A DNA stretch of 64,000 nt from Planctomycetota bacterium (lineage in GTDB: Bacteria > Planctomycetota > UBA1135 > GCA-002748355): the NCBI GenBank assembly GCA_026984035.1, contig JALSSW010000148.1, positions 1 through 64,000 on the forward strand. The letters run 5' to 3'. Below are positions 2,809 to 16,012 of this stretch, piece after piece; the stretch's first letter is position 1, and every line of letters begins with the position of its first letter. The translations under genes and the position numbers were made by a program. The notes below the pieces were generated by a model. That model was not told the DNA's origin and did not search any database. It worked only from the letters and a program-made list of their open reading frames with translations.

Positions 2809-5800
2809 ATGGAAATCAAAGCCCGATCCTTTTTCTTTCTTGCCATTCCCCTCCTTCTGCTGGCCGTTCTTTTCTTTTTAAGGTCCCAAGTCGGTTTGGG
2901 TGGTGCTGATGCATTTCAGGAACCCGATGTCGAAACTTTGGGTGAGCTGAGAGAGTCGGATCCCAGCCCTTCCTTATGGGAAAAGAGAGCTTCTTTGGAG
3001 GGGGCCACCCGGAAAAAACAGGACACGGATCCGAGCCAGAGCGTCGTGGAAGGGCAAGTTTTTTTAGTAAAGGGGAGGAAACCAGCCCCCTTTGTTCAAA
3101 TCCTTGCCTTGGATCGTCCCTCTGCCTTCCAACAAATTGAGCTGCGTCTCCAGGACCTTTTTGCCAATGGTTTTTTCCAGTCCAAGGAAGTCCCAATTCC
3201 AAAGGTTTTGGGGAAGACCCGGGCAGATGCGGAAGGCCGATTTCGACTTACCGGCCTTCCCGCGGGGCGGATCTACTTGGATGCCCACTCGGATCAATGG
3301 TTTTCTCGGAGCCAACCTGCAGCCCTTGTTGCGCGGGGGGAGACCAGGTCCGGCATTCAACTCTTTGTCTCTCCCGGGTCGAGAGTGTTTGGGGAGATTC
3401 AGGGTCCCAAGGGAGAGCCCCTCCCCGGGGCTAGGGTTGTTCTTAGGCCGGACGCGAACGCCTTCCTTGCCCGGCTTTCCGAGAGGAATTACCGTTGGGT
3501 GGAAACTCTCACGGACAGCGAGGGGCGGTACTCAATTCCCGGGGTGCCCCCGGGCCGGGGCTATGCCCTCGTGGCCCTCCATCCAAAGATGGCTCCCGCC
3601 CAAAAGCGGGACATCCAAGTCTTCGCCATGCGAGCCCTGCGTGTTGATCTCAGAGGGACTCGCGGGGGGGTGATTCGAGGGCGCGTCCTGAGGGATCATG
3701 GTGAGCCTGCGGCCTTTGCCCGAGTGGGTTTTGCCTATATGGATCTTGCGCGCATTTTGTTTTCCGTGGGGCAAGGGAATCCTGTTCGAACGGACGCAGA
3801 GGGTCGTTTTGAAATCCGTGGGGTCGGGGCAGGGCTTCTGGCCATCACAGCTCTGGAGGACGGCTTTGCCCCTTCGGAGCCCAAGACCCTTCTGATGCCT
3901 GAGGGGGGAGTCCTTCAGACCGAGCTTGTTCTGAACAAGGGATGGTCTCTCAAGGGTCTCGTTTTGGATGAAAACAATAAAGCCCTTGCGGGAGTCCCTG
4001 TGGTGGCCCGGAGTTTTGAACAACCCCGTGGTCTTGATCTGGGGGCTTTGGTTCGGATCTATCCTGTCCGAACGAAGACAGACAAGCATGGGGCCTTCGT
4101 CATCAAGGGGCTTTTGGCGACCCGGGTTTTTGTCGAAGCCCGTAAGAAGGGTTTTTTCCCCGGGAGGGCTTCAAGAAAGCAGGAAGACGGAGAGAAACCG
4201 CTCCGGCTGATCTTGAGCCGTGGAGGATTCCTCCAGGGAAGGGTTGTGGGGCAGGGAGGGAAACCCCTGGAGCGTTTTCATGTCCTTGCTCTCCCAAAAA
4301 AGGGAAGAAGAATCCGGATCGGCCCTGAGTGGGGGCGCCCCTCCAGAAAGGGCAACCCCTATGTGGATCGAAGTCCCTGGCTGGGTCGCCAGGGCAAGGA
4401 AATCCAAAACCCGGAAGGTCGTTTTGTGTATGGGCCTCTCCCCTATGGGAAAATCAAGCTGCAGGTTTGGGCCCAAGGGTATTTAAAGACCGACCTTGAG
4501 GTGAACCTTGTTCGGGGGAAAAAGCTTCCTGAGATTGTATTGTCTCTCCTGCCAGGGGGAACGCTCGAAGGGCAAGTACTCGCGGGGGGACAACCTCTCC
4601 CCGAAGCCCAAGTGACCTGGCGGAGGTTTCGTGCCCCGCGCGGCCCTTCCTTTTTGCCCTTTCGCTTTGAGTCCGAACCCGAGGACCTGGATCTCATGGG
4701 GCTTTCTTCTTCTCTGTCTCATCGTTCGGTTCTTACAGATGGAAATGGGCGTTTCCATCTTGATGGCGTGGAACCTGGAAAGGTGCGGATCACTGCTCGC
4801 CATCCAGATTGGGCGAAGCGATCCCTGGGGCCAATCCCTGTTGAGGCGGGCAAAGCTCAAAAGGGAATTCTCCTCCAAATGATGGTGGGTGGAACCATTG
4901 AGGGGCGTGTCCTTGGACTCAAGGACCGAGGGCAAGCCGGTGCCATGGTGGTCGCGGCATCCATTGCCAAGGGGGCCCTCAAGGCTACTACGACCAAAAA
5001 GGACGGAAGCTTTGTCCTCAAGGCGCTTCCCCCCGGGCCCTACGTGGTGTTCAAGACACGGATTGATGCGACTCGCACGGATCTCTGGTCGCAAGTTGTC
5101 GGAAATGTCCGGCTGCGGGCCGCCACCGTTCGAGAGGGAAAGGTGACGCGTGTCGTGATTGAGGACCGGAGCGAAGGGGGAGTGGATCTTTACGGAATTT
5201 TGACCGCCCAAGGGAAGCCTGCTCCGGGTGCAGTCTTGACGCTCTTGGGGCAGGACAAACAGGGTCCCCTCGGCATTGGGGTTCGCTCGGCCACGGCCGA
5301 TGCCCGGGGGCATTACAAGCTTCCTTCCGTGAGGCCTGGGCGATACCTGGCCCGGATCACCAATTATACGCGTTCCCGCCCTGTGGGAGCGCAGGTGGCT
5401 GTCGAAGTCCGGAGCGGAGTGCGGCGGCAGAGACTCGACTTGCGTTTTCCTGATGGGGAGATGTTTGGCCGCATCATGGATTCTACAGGGAAGGGGGTCC
5501 CCGGCGTTCGTGTGCGGGCCATCTCCGAGGATGGCCGGCTTAGGGGAATCGGCTTGGTTGGCATGATCGCTGGGAATGCGGGTGCGGATCGGGATCGCAG
5601 TGCGGGGGATGGGAGTTTTCACCTGAACCGTTTAGCTGCAGGCCGCTGGACTCTTTCCGCGGAGCCACGAGGAGAACTCTCCAACCGGTTTTCCAGCGCA
5701 GAAAAAACAGGGATTGTCTTACAGCCCGGTCAAAAACTCCGGGGAATCGTCTTGGTCCTTCCTCGCGCAACGGTCCTTGAAGGCGATGTTGTGGATGGAC

Positions 5801-10308: not shown

Positions 10309-11165
10309 TTGTTTGTCGAACAACCTCCTCGCTTCGTGAAGCTTTGGCGCGGATTCCTCCCGAAAACCGTGGTTTCGTTCCCACAATGGGGGCCTTGCAT
10401 CGAGGCCATTTGAGCTTGGTAGAGGCAGCCAAGGCTCGAAGGGACAATCCTGTGGTGAGTATCTTTGTGAATCCGCTCCAGTTTGGGCCAGGGGAGGATT
10501 TGGATCGATACCCCCGAACCGAAGAAGAGGACCTGAAGCTGCTGAATGAAGCAGGAGTGGGCCTTGTTTTTTTGCCCAGTGTTGAGGAGATGTTTCCGGT
10601 GGGGATGGGAACCTTTGTGGAAGTGGCGGGGATTTCTGAAGAACTGGAGGGGAGTCTCAGGCCGGGGCACTTTCGAGGGGTAGCTACGGTTTGTGCCCGT
10701 CTTTTCCATTTGGTGGAGCCTGCACGGGCCTACTTCGGCTGGAAAGATATGCAACAATGCTGTCTTTTACAGAAGATGGTCCGAGATCTTGCCTTTCCTT
10801 TGGAGATCATTCCCTGTGAAATCGTGCGCGAGGAGGATGGTCTTGCCCTTTCTTCTCGAAATCGGTATTTGAGCGCAGAACAAAGAAAGGCGGCCAGCAC
10901 CCTCTCAAGGAGTTTGCGGAAGGCCTGTCAAGCTTTCGCAGAGGGAGAGCGTTCTTTCATGGCCCTGGAGGCTTTAGTGCGAAGAAACCTGGATCCATCT
11001 CTTTGCTGTGAATATGTGGCGGTCCGTCGAAGTATGGATTTTTCAAACCCCGGTCCCACCGTAGATGGAGGCCGCATTTTGGCTGCAGCAAAGCTGGGGG
11101 AAGTCCATTTGATTGATAATATGCCCCTTGAGGAGTTCGAGAAGGGTGAAGATCTACCGTCGTAA
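10293..11165 (+). CDS. panC: Pantothenate synthetase (pantoate-beta-alanine ligase)
   Basis: A 290-residue protein of the nucleotidyltransferase (HIGH) superfamily: PTMGALHRGH at residues 30-39 holds the HxGH ATP motif and LSSRNRYLS near residue 186 is the KMSKS-like loop. It condenses pantoate with beta-alanine using ATP, the last step to pantothenate for coenzyme A. FVNPLQFGPGEDLDRYPR, the pantoate site, is present. Length is standard. It overlaps folK upstream and ispE downstream (20 bases), so it sits in the middle of one operon. No panB or panD is in view, and the DUF2520 gene further on may supply the pantoate-forming reduction. Confidence 0.95.
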   Translation: MSDPLIVCRTTSSLREALARIPPENRGFVPTMGALHRGHLSLVEAAKARRDNPVVSIFVNPLQFGPGEDLDRYPRTEEEDLKLLNEAGVGLVFLPSVEEMFPVGMGTFVEVAGISEELEGSLRPGHFRGVATVCARLFHLVEPARAYFGWKDMQQCCLLQKMVRDLAFPLEIIPCEIVREEDGLALSSRNRYLSAEQRKAASTLSRSLRKACQAFAEGERSFMALEALVRRNLDPSLCCEYVAVRRSMDFSNPGPTVDGGRILAAAKLGEVHLIDNMPLEEFEKGEDLPS

Positions 11166-12264
11166 AGCCCCTGCAAAAGTCAATCTCCTACTTGAAGTTC
11201 TTGGTAAGCGGGATGATGGGTTTCATGAGCTTCGAACGGTCTTTGATGCCTTAGAATTTGGCGACGACCTGTCCTTTTACCCCGAAAAGGACTCAGGGTT
11301 TTCTCTCGAACTGGCAAATCCTCAGGTTCCAGAAGGTTTTCCCTTGAATGGGAGCAACCTGATTCTTCGAGCAGCAGAGGCCTATCGAAGCGCATATCCC
11401 GGATCTTTAGGGGGAACTTTTGTTTTGGAAAAACGGATCCCGATGGGGGCAGGTCTGGGGGGGGGATCCAGTGACGGGGCACAGGCACTTCTACTCCTCG
11501 AAGAGGCTGAACGTGGGGAAGGATATCTAGACTCCAAAAGAGACCCAAAGGATTTGCGAAAACTTGCAGCTTCTTTGGGGGCTGATCTCCCCTTTTTCTT
11601 GGAAGGAGGGAGAGCTTTCGCCGAGGGCCGGGGGGATGGGATTTGCCCTCTGGAGGAGCAAATCCCCCTGTTTTATCTTCTGATTTTTCCTCGGGTGCAC
11701 TGTGACACTGCTGCGGTCTTCCGCCAGTATCAACGGGGGTTGACAAGAAAGGGAGGCACTTTAGGGTTATTCCCAGGTAAGTATTTTTGTCAAGTTAAAT
11801 CGGATGAAGAGCACTGCCACCCCTCTCGGTTTGCAAGGCGGTTTTATTTCCAAGGTGTATCGCAACCCTTCTTTCAAAAAGAGGCCTCGTCAAGGTCTTT
11901 GTGCCACCCAATTCTTGCGAGTTCCGAGATTGCTCTAGGCTTTTTAAACTGGGCTCTGCAATTTGATGCTTCGGCAGATCCGCTTACCCAGCTCTTTAAT
12001 GATCTCCGTTGTGCAGCGATACGGGAGTATCCTGAGCTGGAAGAGATCCTTCGGTTGTTGCGGGATCTTGGCCTTCCTCCCCCCCACCTTTCCGGGAGTG
12101 GTTCTACCTTCTTTCTGGTGTTCCAAGACAGAGGAGCGTGTGAGGCTATGGCAAGCGATCTTGCTTCTCAGTGGGAGAATTTGCCTCAGGAAAAAAAAGA
12201 TCTGATTTCTTTCGTTACAACTCGGTCTTTTCCGCGCCTTCTTAGGGAGGAGGAAGATTCCTAG
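11146..12264 (+). CDS. ispE: 4-diphosphocytidyl-2-C-methyl-D-erythritol kinase
   Basis: A GHMP-family kinase: substrate motif APAKVNLLLEV near the start, GHMP ATP loop PMGAGLGGGSSDGAQAL at about residues 99-115 and the C-terminal motif HLSGSGSTFF. It phosphorylates the 2-position of CDP-methylerythritol in the non-mevalonate (MEP) isoprenoid route. I chose GTG 11146 (product 372 residues) because AGGAG lies ten bases upstream and homology begins at once; a TTG at 11113 is possible. The protein is longer than the usual ~290 residues, mostly from an aromatic/basic-rich stretch around residues 205-255 inserted before the C-terminal substrate region. panC overlaps its start; spoVG follows 152 bases later. 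Confidence 0.9.
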   Translation: MKIYRRKAPAKVNLLLEVLGKRDDGFHELRTVFDALEFGDDLSFYPEKDSGFSLELANPQVPEGFPLNGSNLILRAAEAYRSAYPGSLGGTFVLEKRIPMGAGLGGGSSDGAQALLLLEEAERGEGYLDSKRDPKDLRKLAASLGADLPFFLEGGRAFAEGRGDGICPLEEQIPLFYLLIFPRVHCDTAAVFRQYQRGLTRKGGTLGLFPGKYFCQVKSDEEHCHPSRFARRFYFQGVSQPFFQKEASSRSLCHPILASSEIALGFLNWALQFDASADPLTQLFNDLRCAAIREYPELEEILRLLRDLGLPPPHLSGSGSTFFLVFQDRGACEAMASDLASQWENLPQEKKDLISFVTTRSFPRLLREEEDS

Positions 12265-12416
12265 TCTGGACGACAAAGGATCTCATGGATCCCTGGCTTC
12301 GTTTTTTAAGGCAGGAGCCGCTCCTCCTGGTCCTGAATGTTTCTGCATGGCGGCAGAATTCCAAGACCAAATCCCCAGTTCCTTTCTAGATATCCAACAT
12401 GGAAGGAGGAGAGCAA

Positions 12417-12890
12417 GTGAAGGTAACCGAAGTTCGCATCAAGCTCATGGATGGCTCCCAAAGGAATGGAGACGTGAAGCTCAAGGCTTTTTGTTCCGTT
12501 ACTCTGGACGGAGCTTTTGTGATCCGAGATCTCAAGGTGATTCAAGGGACCAATGGTCTCTTCGTAGCCATGCCCAGTCGCAAGGTGATGAGTCACTGCC
12601 CCTGCTGTGAGACAAAAAACTTTCTCTTGGCCCGATACTGTAATGACTGTGGAAAAGAACTTCCTCGTGTTTCAGAAAAGGAGATTGATGGGTCTAGGAA
12701 ACGGTATGCAGACATTGTGCATCCTGTGCATTCCAAGGCGCGTAAGCTTCTTCATGACGCTGTGTTGAATGCATACCAGAGGGAGCTTGGGGACAGGGGG
12801 AACTCGGGAGGGAAGAGGGGGATTCCGGGGCCTCCCCACATCTCGGGTTCTGATTCGGGGAAATTAGAGTGTTTTGAGGGGGAAGCCTAA
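12417..12890 (+). CDS. spoVG: SpoVG family protein with C-terminal zinc ribbon
   Basis: Residues 1-58 match SpoVG (VTEVRIKLMDG, VTLDGAFVIRDLKVI, GLFVAMPSRK), a small nucleic-acid-binding regulator known from Bacillus, Listeria and Borrelia. The classic protein ends about residue 85; here residues 60-82 instead form a four-Cys zinc ribbon (C61-x2-C64, then CNDC), followed by a conserved-looking segment (YADIVHPVHSKARKLL) and a Gly/Pro-rich tail. GTG 12417 is chosen because GGAGG lies immediately upstream at usual distance; the ATG at 12399 would bury it. SpoVG binds RNA and DNA, so the ribbon probably adds another nucleic-acid or protein contact. It lies behind ispE as in Bacillus. Confidence 0.88.
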   Translation: MKVTEVRIKLMDGSQRNGDVKLKAFCSVTLDGAFVIRDLKVIQGTNGLFVAMPSRKVMSHCPCCETKNFLLARYCNDCGKELPRVSEKEIDGSRKRYADIVHPVHSKARKLLHDAVLNAYQRELGDRGNSGGKRGIPGPPHISGSDSGKLECFEGEA

Positions 12891-13068: not shown

Positions 13069-13941
13069 ATGAACTTAACTGCGGGAATGATCGGAACGGG
13101 TCGAATGGCCGAAGTCCTGGGAAAGGCCTTTTCTTGGGATCCAAAGGGCCTTTTAAGATTCCGGTTTTTTATGGGGCGGGATCGGCAACGAACCAAAGAT
13201 CTATCCAGTGTTTTGGGGGCAGACGCGCTCAGCTTTGGAGATCCGCTCCCCAGAGTGGATCTCCTTTGGATTGCCGTTCGGGATGACGCTCTCGAAGAAG
13301 TCGCTGACGGACTGGCTCGAGCCTCCTGGCCAGAGGGTCCCCCCAAACTTGTCATCCATGGCTCGGGAGCAAAGGGGGTTGAGGCTCTCAAGAGTTTTCG
13401 GAACATGGGTGTCCCTCTTGGAGTTTTGCATCCCCTTTTCAGCCTTCAAGTTGGGATGGGGATGAAGGGACGATTGTTTATTCTTACTGGGGATCCCGAA
13501 GCAAGAGGGCTTCTTGAGCCCTTGGTGAGATCCATTGGGGCTCGGCCCAGATATATAAAGAACCTGAATCCGGCGCTCTACCACTGCGCTGCATCGATGT
13601 TGGCGAATGGGACCACTGCTTTGTATGCAGGGGGAGTGGAATTGCTTCAAAAGGCGAGTGCTGGGGCCTTAGGGAAAGAGGAGGCCGTTTTGCTTATGCG
13701 TGCTTCCCTCGAAGCTTTGGAGCAGGGAGAGCCTGAGGAGGTTCTGACGGGGCCTGTGCAACGGGGAGATTTGGAGACGGTGGCCAGCCATCTGGCAAGC
13801 TTGGAAGGGCAGACAGGAGAGCAACAAAAGCTCTACCGGGCTCTCATGGGATATGCATTATCTTTGGCTGCCCAAGGGGGGCTGCCCGAAGGCCTTCGGC
13901 GGGACCTCGAACTCATGCTCGAATGGGAGGGGGAGGCGTGA
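13069..13941 (+). CDS. Rossmann-like oxidoreductase with DUF2520 domain (possible ketopantoate reductase)
   Basis: The protein has an N-terminal NAD(P)-binding fold (GMIGTGRMAEVLGKAF at residues 7-22; LLWIAVRDDALEEVA; LVIHGSGAKG) and a helical second half with GVLHPLFSLQ and LNPALYHCAASMLANGTTALYAG, the hallmarks of the DUF2520/COG5495 family. These are distant relatives of pyrroline-carboxylate and ketopantoate reductases. ATG 13069 places the nucleotide-binding loop seven residues from the end as usual; GTG 13042 is the alternative. It ends at 13941 with a 4-base GTGA overlap with the aroDE gene. Because panC is in the same cluster, I infer that it may reduce ketopantoate to pantoate; a role in shikimate metabolism is the alternative. 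Confidence 0.82.
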   Translation: MNLTAGMIGTGRMAEVLGKAFSWDPKGLLRFRFFMGRDRQRTKDLSSVLGADALSFGDPLPRVDLLWIAVRDDALEEVADGLARASWPEGPPKLVIHGSGAKGVEALKSFRNMGVPLGVLHPLFSLQVGMGMKGRLFILTGDPEARGLLEPLVRSIGARPRYIKNLNPALYHCAASMLANGTTALYAGGVELLQKASAGALGKEEAVLLMRASLEALEQGEPEEVLTGPVQRGDLETVASHLASLEGQTGEQQKLYRALMGYALSLAAQGGLPEGLRRDLELMLEWEGEA

Positions 13942-15467
13942 CCCGCTTTGTGGCAAGTGTCTTCCCAAAAGGGGTAGAAGAAGGGCGAGAGCAAGGGAGA
14001 TCTGCTCTTCGCTCCGGGGCAGATTTGATCGAGTTTCGCGTCGACCGTCTTCGACATCCATCGGAGGTCGCGACTCTGGTTTCACTCTTCCCTGAGAACT
14101 CTTTGATCTCATGCCGAGTCCCCGAAGATGGGGGGGAGTGGGCAGGAACCGTGGAAGAACGCCGAAGAATGCTCATTGCCGCCGTGGGGGCTGGAGCGAA
14201 ATGGGTGGATCTGGAGCATTGGGAAACCCTGGGGCTCCCTCCCGGAAGTTCCACAAAGATTCTTCGCTCCTATCATCGTCTTCATGGCGCCCCTTCCCAA
14301 CCCGAGGAACTCATGAGGCGCATGTGTCGTTCGGGTGCAGATGCTCTCAAGATTGTCTGGATGGGTTATGACGCGGCAGATTATTCCAAGATCCATGAAC
14401 TATATTCGATGGTTCCCGATCTTCCCCTTACGGCTTTTCTCGTGGGAAAGGCCGGCCGTTCCTCACGATTTCTCGCCATCTTGGAAGGGGCCCCTTTTCT
14501 CTATTGCGCTCCGGGCCCCGGCCTTGCTGTGGCGGAGGGGCAACCCGACCTCTTCGAAGCCTCTCAGGTCTACCGATTGGGGAATGCAAAACCGGGTGAC
14601 CGGTTCTGGGGCCTTTGTGGATCCCCCGTTGAACACTCTCTGGGTTATCGCTTACACAATGGGCTGGGGCGGTGGATCCCAAACCTTCCAAGGTATTTCC
14701 CCTTTGAAACTCAGGAACCTGAGGCTCTTGCACGGATGCTTTGGGGGATTTATGGGGAGAGTTTTTTGGGACTGTCGGTCACCGCTCCTCACAAGCGGAG
14801 GGCTTATCGTTTTTCCTGCCAGCGGGACGAATGGGCCGAGGCCTGTGGGGCCGTCAATACCCTTAAAGCAAGCCCTGAAGGTTTCCTTGGCTACAATACC
14901 GATGCGCCGGCCATTGCCCGCTGTTTGGCCGAGGCTTCCCCCCATGGTCTCGCAGGGATGACGGCCCTTGTCGTTGGGGGGGGTGGGGTCGCCCGCTCGG
15001 CCTGTGTGGCACTCCAATCCCTTGGTTGTCGAGTCGCGATTGCCGCCCGATCACGGAAAAAGATCTTAGGTTTTGCGAAGGAGAGAGGAGTCACCGTACT
15101 CCCCTTCGAAGCAAGCCTTCTCAAAGATCTTTCTGCCAGGGTTCTGATTCATGCAACCCCTGTGGGGCAAGAGGGTGAAAAAGCCGAGGGTCAATCCCTG
15201 TTCTCGGAAGCCGACATCCCCCATGGCCTCCTGACATTGGATTTAGTGTATCGGCCCACAATGACACCACTTCTCCAAAGGGTTCGTCGGGCCGGTGGAA
15301 TTGCTGTTTCTGGGCTTCGAGTGTTTTTGCACCAGGCTGCATTGCAGGTTGAAGTTTTGCTTGGTGAACGTATCCCCCCACTGGGCGGAATCGAAGATTT
15401 GGCTGTTTTGGTGGGACCTGAAGGGAGGGAGTTGGAGCAGGAAGGGTTGTGGGGAGGCTGTCCTTGA
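13938..15467 (+). CDS. aroDE: Bifunctional 3-dehydroquinate dehydratase (type I) / shikimate dehydrogenase
   Basis: Residues 1-215 are a type I dehydroquinase barrel: IEFRVDRL, catalytic His113 in SYHRLHG and Schiff-base Lys138 in ADALKIVW. Residues 225-490 are shikimate dehydrogenase: SVTAPHKRRA (catalytic Lys), CGAVNTL, GYNTDAPAIA (catalytic Asp) and the NADP loop VVGGGGVARSA. Together they convert 3-dehydroquinate to shikimate. In the substrate motif GSPVEHSLGYRLHN the usual second Ser and the Pro (HSxSPxxHN) are Gly and Tyr, which may alter shikimate binding. The GTG start at 13938 overlaps the previous stop and has GGGAGG seven bases before it. aroD-aroE fusions are known from plants and from planctomycetes, chlamydiae and others. 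Confidence 0.92.
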   Translation: MTRFVASVFPKGVEEGREQGRSALRSGADLIEFRVDRLRHPSEVATLVSLFPENSLISCRVPEDGGEWAGTVEERRRMLIAAVGAGAKWVDLEHWETLGLPPGSSTKILRSYHRLHGAPSQPEELMRRMCRSGADALKIVWMGYDAADYSKIHELYSMVPDLPLTAFLVGKAGRSSRFLAILEGAPFLYCAPGPGLAVAEGQPDLFEASQVYRLGNAKPGDRFWGLCGSPVEHSLGYRLHNGLGRWIPNLPRYFPFETQEPEALARMLWGIYGESFLGLSVTAPHKRRAYRFSCQRDEWAEACGAVNTLKASPEGFLGYNTDAPAIARCLAEASPHGLAGMTALVVGGGGVARSACVALQSLGCRVAIAARSRKKILGFAKERGVTVLPFEASLLKDLSARVLIHATPVGQEGEKAEGQSLFSEADIPHGLLTLDLVYRPTMTPLLQRVRRAGGIAVSGLRVFLHQAALQVEVLLGERIPPLGGIEDLAVLVGPEGRELEQEGLWGGCP

Positions 15468-16012
15468 AAGGCCCAAGCTTAGGCTTGATTCTAATCGGGC
15501 AACGAGGAACCGGCAAAACCACCTTAGGGGGACTGCTTGCCCGGCATTGGGGACTTCCCTTTTCCGACAGTGATCAGGAGTTTCAGCGGGAACATGCTTG
15601 CACTTCTGGAGATTGGATCCGCCGTTTTGGAGAGGTTTCTTTTCGGGTGGAGGAGGAGCGAATCGTCGGGCGTCTTTTTCATGATTTGAGGAAAGCCCCA
15701 AGGATTTTGGCTCTTGGGGGGGGAGCTCCGACCACTGGGACCACGAAGAAGGGGCTTGAAGAACTTCGCCTCTTTGGGAGCAGCATTCTTTATTTGACCT
15801 GCCCCATGGAACTTGCCCTGAGTCGTATGGAGAAACGCTTCGAGGCGGAACCCCTTCTGAGGGAGGGAACACCCAAGGGGGATTGGGAGCAGCTCTTTTT
15901 GGAGCGGCATCGTTCATATGCTGCTTTAGCGGATCACCAGTTTGAGAATGATTTCGAAAACCCGGAGACTGCTTTGAAAGCCCTGCTCCCTATGTTGGAG
16001 AGATCTGATTAA
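15464..16012 (+). CDS. aroK: Shikimate kinase
   Basis: A 182-residue P-loop kinase: GQRGTGKTT at residues 11-19 (Walker A), DSDQEF (Mg and shikimate aspartates), FRVEEERIV (shikimate-binding Arg/Glu) and LGGGAPT. It phosphorylates shikimate at O3, the next step after the fused upstream enzyme. Start TTG 15464 forms a TTGA overlap with the aroDE stop and has GGGGAGG six bases upstream; GTG 15449 is less likely. The lid region contains Arg in RFEAEPLLRE as in the family. With the fusion gene it makes a compact shikimate operon; no aroA, aroB or aroC is in the window. Confidence 0.93.
   Translation: MKGPSLGLILIGQRGTGKTTLGGLLARHWGLPFSDSDQEFQREHACTSGDWIRRFGEVSFRVEEERIVGRLFHDLRKAPRILALGGGAPTTGTTKKGLEELRLFGSSILYLTCPMELALSRMEKRFEAEPLLREGTPKGDWEQLFLERHRSYAALADHQFENDFENPETALKALLPMLERSD

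Follow-up and report, generated by a model that had tools for sequence, protein, structure and literature searches.

The 64,000-nucleotide stretch of planctomycete DNA analyzed here (the window) carries a gene that a sequence-only reading had described as a standard SpoVG fold followed by a four-Cys ribbon and a third conserved block, and it raises the question of whether this ribbon is real, where in the protein it lies, and whether it could give SpoVG a further contact with nucleic acid. The open reading frame occupies positions 12417–12890 of the forward strand, as that reading had it, with 157 codons from a GTG at 12417 and a stop codon at 12888–12890. A second start, an ATG at 12399, is also open and would yield a 163-aa form, but a Shine-Dalgarno-like AAGGAGG (12403–12409, forward strand) sits 7 nt 5′ of the GTG, which is therefore the better start; R55, C61, and the other residues named below are counted from it.

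The Pfam SpoVG model (PF04026) matched the protein at 90.7 bits (cut-off 29.6) over profile positions 2–81 of 82, and the match covers residues 8–127 of the 163-aa form, straight across the cysteine region. With phmmer, the match to 2ia9 came in two pieces, 8–63 and 102–132, one on either side of the ribbon. Because the Pfam match spans the cysteines and the phmmer match is split, the protein is best described as one SpoVG domain interrupted by an insert. The SpoVG fold is thus still incomplete where the ribbon begins, and the anatomy has to be corrected from an extension to an insert. The supposed third block, DIVHPVHSKARKLL, corresponds to the normal SpoVG C terminus (DIAHPINS...), which is present in every insert-free SpoVG, and the Pfam and phmmer matches rule it out as a new third domain. 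The insert also splits the match to the NCBIfam equivalog NF009749 (septation regulator SpoVG), which reached 82.6 bits against a cut-off of 108, and so the protein is not filed as that equivalog. A search of the genome found SpoVG in this reading frame only; by these profile matches, the genome has one bona fide SpoVG, and it is of the planctomycete type.

Within the gene (all coordinates on the forward strand), the N-terminal part of the core, residues 1–56 (12417–12584), aligns by phmmer with 2ia9, 2i9x, and 2i9z, has its strands in the structural model, and ends in MPSRK. The last two residues form the basic doublet R55-K56 (12579–12584), the presence of which we checked as a mark of SpoVG and which is equivalent by alignment to S. 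aureus K50-R51 (PMC3688583); both positions are basic in 104 of the 108 ribboned domains of the phylum. There follows a loop of 42 aa, residues 57–98 (12585–12710), where ribbonless SpoVGs have 7, and this loop holds the ribbon C61-x2-C64-x3-N68-x6-C75-x2-C78 (12597–12650). The canonical C-terminal part, residues 99–130 (12711–12806), is recognized by Pfam, phmmer, and the model and includes the helix on which DNA specificity depends in other SpoVGs. The tail, residues 131–157 (12807–12887), is probably disordered (pLDDT 57–65) and hardly conserved, with 14 of 26 aligned residues differing from the homologue in the same genus (L052). The window protein thus has the core fold, MPS[RK][RK], DIxHP, C-terminal helix, and ispE neighborhood in common with the SpoVG family (PF04026; B. 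subtilis 2ia9, S. epidermidis 2i9x and 2i9z), and differs from these structures in the four-Cys insert, about 35 aa long and placed in the turn ahead of DIxHP, in the low-complexity tail, and in a loop near residue 16 that is longer by 5 residues. As judged from these alignments, the ribbon adds a net 35 residues inside the SpoVG domain, between R55-K56 and the C-terminal helix.

The sequence-only reading had allowed that the ribbon would be chance should its cysteines vary among homologues, and we found that they do not. SpoVG is present in 172 of the 294 genomes of the window's phylum; among the matches listed, full-domain SpoVGs of the phylum span about 336–378 nt for about 80 profile positions, and all of them would therefore have at least 30-odd residues inserted. 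The loci that we fetched gave 113 distinct SpoVG-like domains, 108 of which have the four-Cys motif; by a strict count, the spacing is exactly 2-10-2 in 104. The five without it are four divergent, insert-free domains (L166, L178, L179, and L182) and L158. Since having the motif was what put a domain into the ribbon class, conservation is more fairly judged on insert-bearing domains: all four cysteines are present in 108 of 109 distinct ones in the phylum and in 26 of 26 in Omnitrophota. The loop from the doublet to D-x-x-HP has a median of 43 residues in the phylum, compared with 7 in ribbonless SpoVG. In an alignment of 94 sequences the four Cys columns are invariant, and cysteine makes up 1.5% of residues outside the ribbon. 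C63, a fifth cysteine, is not conserved and is Asn in L052. Other ribbon positions are nearly as constant: K67 and N68 are near-invariant across the phylum (of 107 aligned ribbons, 106 have the Asn), as is Gly79. Over 40 codons, the insert differs from that of L052 by 18 synonymous and 11 amino-acid changes, with all four cysteines kept. We give practically no credence to a chance pattern of cysteines in an unconserved insertion, and rejected it, as they are conserved in 134 distinct homologues and were kept relative to L052 while 11 residues of the insert changed.

In L158 (genome G084), the ribbon appears to be frame-shifted just ahead of the third cysteine, by sequencing error or in a pseudogene. 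The other four exceptions are second, divergent, ribbonless SpoVG-like copies beside a main SpoVG.

An AlphaFold2 model built with the 94-sequence alignment had a mean pLDDT of 85.1, with residues 61–80 at about 96. In a Foldseek search of the PDB, SpoVG chains took the first ten places (E 5e-7 to 1.6e-5), led by 2i9z (E 5e-7; TM 0.86, by target length). RanBP2/NZF fingers (TRABID, Nup153, and ZRANB2 with RNA) followed as weaker matches, about 27 columns long at roughly 1 Å rmsd, which we assigned to the ribbon from match length and type, as the query range was not printed; their probability was 0.72–0.97 and their E-value above 1, which is to be expected of such a short piece. The consensus of RanBP2-type fingers is C-x2-C-x3-N-x6-C-x2-C, and the spacing C-x(2-4)-C-x3-N-x6-C-x2-C is found here at C61, C64, N68, C75, and C78. 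The SpoVG ribbon therefore shares spacing and a local fold of about 27 residues with RanBP2-type, NZF, and DZR ribbons. Unlike them, it forms just one knuckle, set within a different domain, and it lacks the Trp that RanBP2 fingers carry. Pfam ribbon models all scored below their cut-offs (DZR 16.7 against 27.3, Zn_ribbon_6 17.6 against 25, RanBP 11.8 against 27), and the window protein has Leu at ribbon position 11, where relatives commonly have Arg. We conclude that this is a RanBP2/DZR-like ribbon but not a member of those families, and that it very likely binds zinc. The four-Cys ribbon of the sequence-only reading is thus real and conserved, although it lies inside the SpoVG domain, not behind it as that reading had it.

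The insert itself is not new. Gupta et al. 2012 (PMC3444138) reported an insert of 32–36 aa in SpoVG as a signature found only in Planctomycetes, and the net insert is 35 aa in the window protein and has a phylum median of 36. As far as the available text of that account allows, the two have in common the protein, the conserved region, the insert length (net 35–36 aa), and the phylum type; the window insert would be the 2012 insert, an equation that at residue level rests on length, place, and phylum. The window protein is then a plain member of a variant known since 2012. In the available part of the 2012 account, the indel is exclusive to Planctomycetes and is described as an indel, with neither zinc nor function, whereas here it is a four-Cys ribbon that also occurs in Omnitrophota and phages. 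We found no reading of SpoVG as carrying a zinc ribbon, and no account of SpoVG in Omnitrophota, in the open-licence literature. Our additions are modest: the identity of the ribbon, its wider distribution, and the phage copies. With them, the 2012 indel can be read as a likely zinc ribbon with a likely place beside the nucleic-acid contacts.

Although SpoVG is named as a septation regulator, FtsZ was found neither in the window's genome nor in 39 of 40 genomes of the phylum, and in the remaining one a partial match fell below the cut-off. FtsZ is present in 13 of 14 controls. PSCyt2 occurs in 22 of the 40 phylum genomes (57 copies in one) and SBP_bac_10/DUF1559 in 21 at E ≤ 0.001 (17 above cut-off; 48 copies in one); in the window's genome, no PSCyt2 was detected and the SBP_bac_10 match was below cut-off. 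Taken with the 2012 signature, this gene content points to Planctomycetota; the 16S matches listed from a plasmid collection, only about 77% identical, were uninformative as to phylum. The resemblance to planctomycete proteins proposed in the sequence-only reading looks right, given an FtsZ-less, PSCyt2-bearing phylum and, in the text available, the insert reported from Planctomycetes in 2012. More than half of the 294 genomes searched in the phylum retain SpoVG despite the absence of FtsZ in the sampled relatives, so a general role in nucleic-acid binding fits better than a role at the FtsZ ring.

In S. aureus SpoVG, K50 and R51 are each required for DNA binding, as is the R53-R54 pair in Borrelia, and DNA specificity is set by six residues of the C-terminal helix, SDMRQE or QDFRKA (Jutras et al. 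2013, PMC3688583); Listeria SpoVG binds RNA (PMC4959528). In the window protein, the six positions align with about S106–L111. The predicted zinc ribbon is thus inserted in the turn between two elements with known tasks in other SpoVGs, the MPSRK doublet as the contact to the DNA backbone and the C-terminal helix as the reader of the sequence, and from its place between R55-K56 and about S106–L111 it should sit at the edge, or rim, of the proposed binding pocket. There it may add a zinc-stabilized contact with nucleic acid that alters affinity or specificity, in a protein that would otherwise act as other SpoVGs do, as a DNA- and RNA-binding global regulator. From the position of the insert such an extra contact surface is plausible, and we consider a planctomycete-type SpoVG with a predicted zinc ribbon as an additional nucleic-acid contact beside its pocket to be probable, if moderately so. 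The doublet kept in nearly all ribboned domains, the near-invariant Lys-Asn, and RNA-bound ZRANB2 among the fold matches favor it; we counted against it the E-values above 1, the sub-cut-off Pfam ribbons, the missing Trp, and the Leu at position 11.

Many small bacterial ribbons contact proteins instead, and the main rival reading is that the ribbon does so too: nucleic acid would be bound as elsewhere in the family, and the ribbon would recruit a partner such as RNA polymerase, an RNase, or the ribosome, or make a contact within the SpoVG multimer. The best fold matches include ubiquitin-binding NZF fingers and the Ran-binding fingers of Nup153, and S. aureus SpoVG is multimeric and tetramer-sized (PMC3688583). 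On the other hand, two elements known to contact DNA flank the insert, which favors a nucleic-acid role, and there is no known protein partner; we regard a protein contact as rather unlikely. More doubtful still is a ribbon with no contact of its own, whether a structural zinc staple that keeps a long loop stable or a lineage-specific insertion of neutral effect. One Omnitrophota clade has apparently dropped the ribbon while keeping SpoVG, and the insert is one of the conserved signature indels, many of them without a known function (PMC3444138), but a staple alone would not need Lys67, Asn68, and Gly79 all to be near-invariant across the phylum.

The ribbon is not exclusive to Planctomycetes but is widespread in Omnitrophota, where it occurs in 26 of the 34 distinct full SpoVG domains fetched (L032–L034, L036, and L098–L127), and most of the remaining Omnitrophota matches listed have ribbon-sized spans; these figures come from a survey that left out other phyla such as Verrucomicrobiota and Elusimicrobiota. 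In a tree, one clade of Omnitrophota that lacks the ribbon branches from inside the ribboned sequences of that phylum (support 95/85 with L098). One of its members, L110, has an intermediate linker and no cysteines, so the ribbon was probably lost in this clade, as the sequences suggest. Ribbonless delta-type SpoVG groups beside Omnitrophota in this tree of about 84 columns; we set aside a single origin of the ribbon, as so few columns do not decide between one gain and two. Omnitrophota also have second copies, of which the 11 fetched (L167–L177) are short, divergent, and ribbonless. A 432-nt match on a Paenibacillus cellulosilyticus megaplasmid (E 2e-4) was dropped as a ribboned SpoVG, as re-search found no SpoVG open frame there.

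Tailed phages encode the ribbon as well: ribboned SpoVG occurs on ten viral contigs from IMG/VR (L192–L201), with no ispE in the fetched flanks. Clear phage genes flank three of the copies: a Gp23-type capsid gene in L193 (SpoVG at 2977–3411), portal and head morphogenesis genes in L194 (2992–3429), and a terminase gene in L201 (2932–3453). In a tree built on few columns, the phage copies are scattered among planctomycete-type sequences. SpoVG carried by phages has been seen before, spoVG being among the sporulation genes listed for gut phages (PMC10294663), and the ribboned copies suggest a function in takeover. It is conceivable, though as a whole we think it improbable, that ribboned SpoVG is a regulator subfamily in its own right, shared by FtsZ-less Planctomycetota and Omnitrophota, in which the ribbon would give zinc-dependent recognition of RNA or DNA, and that tailed phages of these hosts acquired it on more than one occasion as a regulator of host takeover.

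Directly upstream of spoVG in the window lies ispE (11113–12264, forward strand), identified by its Pfam GHMP kinase N and C domains and by synteny, with its start codon not settled. The order is panC-ispE-spoVG and then a DUF2520/Rossmann protein (by Pfam), compared with ispE-purR-ridA-spoVG in B. subtilis. ispE adjoins spoVG upstream in most loci of the phylum and of Omnitrophota and in most ribbonless loci of other groups, some ispE calls having been scored as downstream because stop-to-stop frames overlap. As ribboned and ribbonless loci have this neighborhood in common, the ribbon was gained or lost in otherwise stable surroundings. Farther along the window, a 514-aa open reading frame (13923–15467) resembles, by eye, a fused 3-dehydroquinate dehydratase and shikimate dehydrogenase, and is followed by one that looks like a shikimate kinase (15449–16012).
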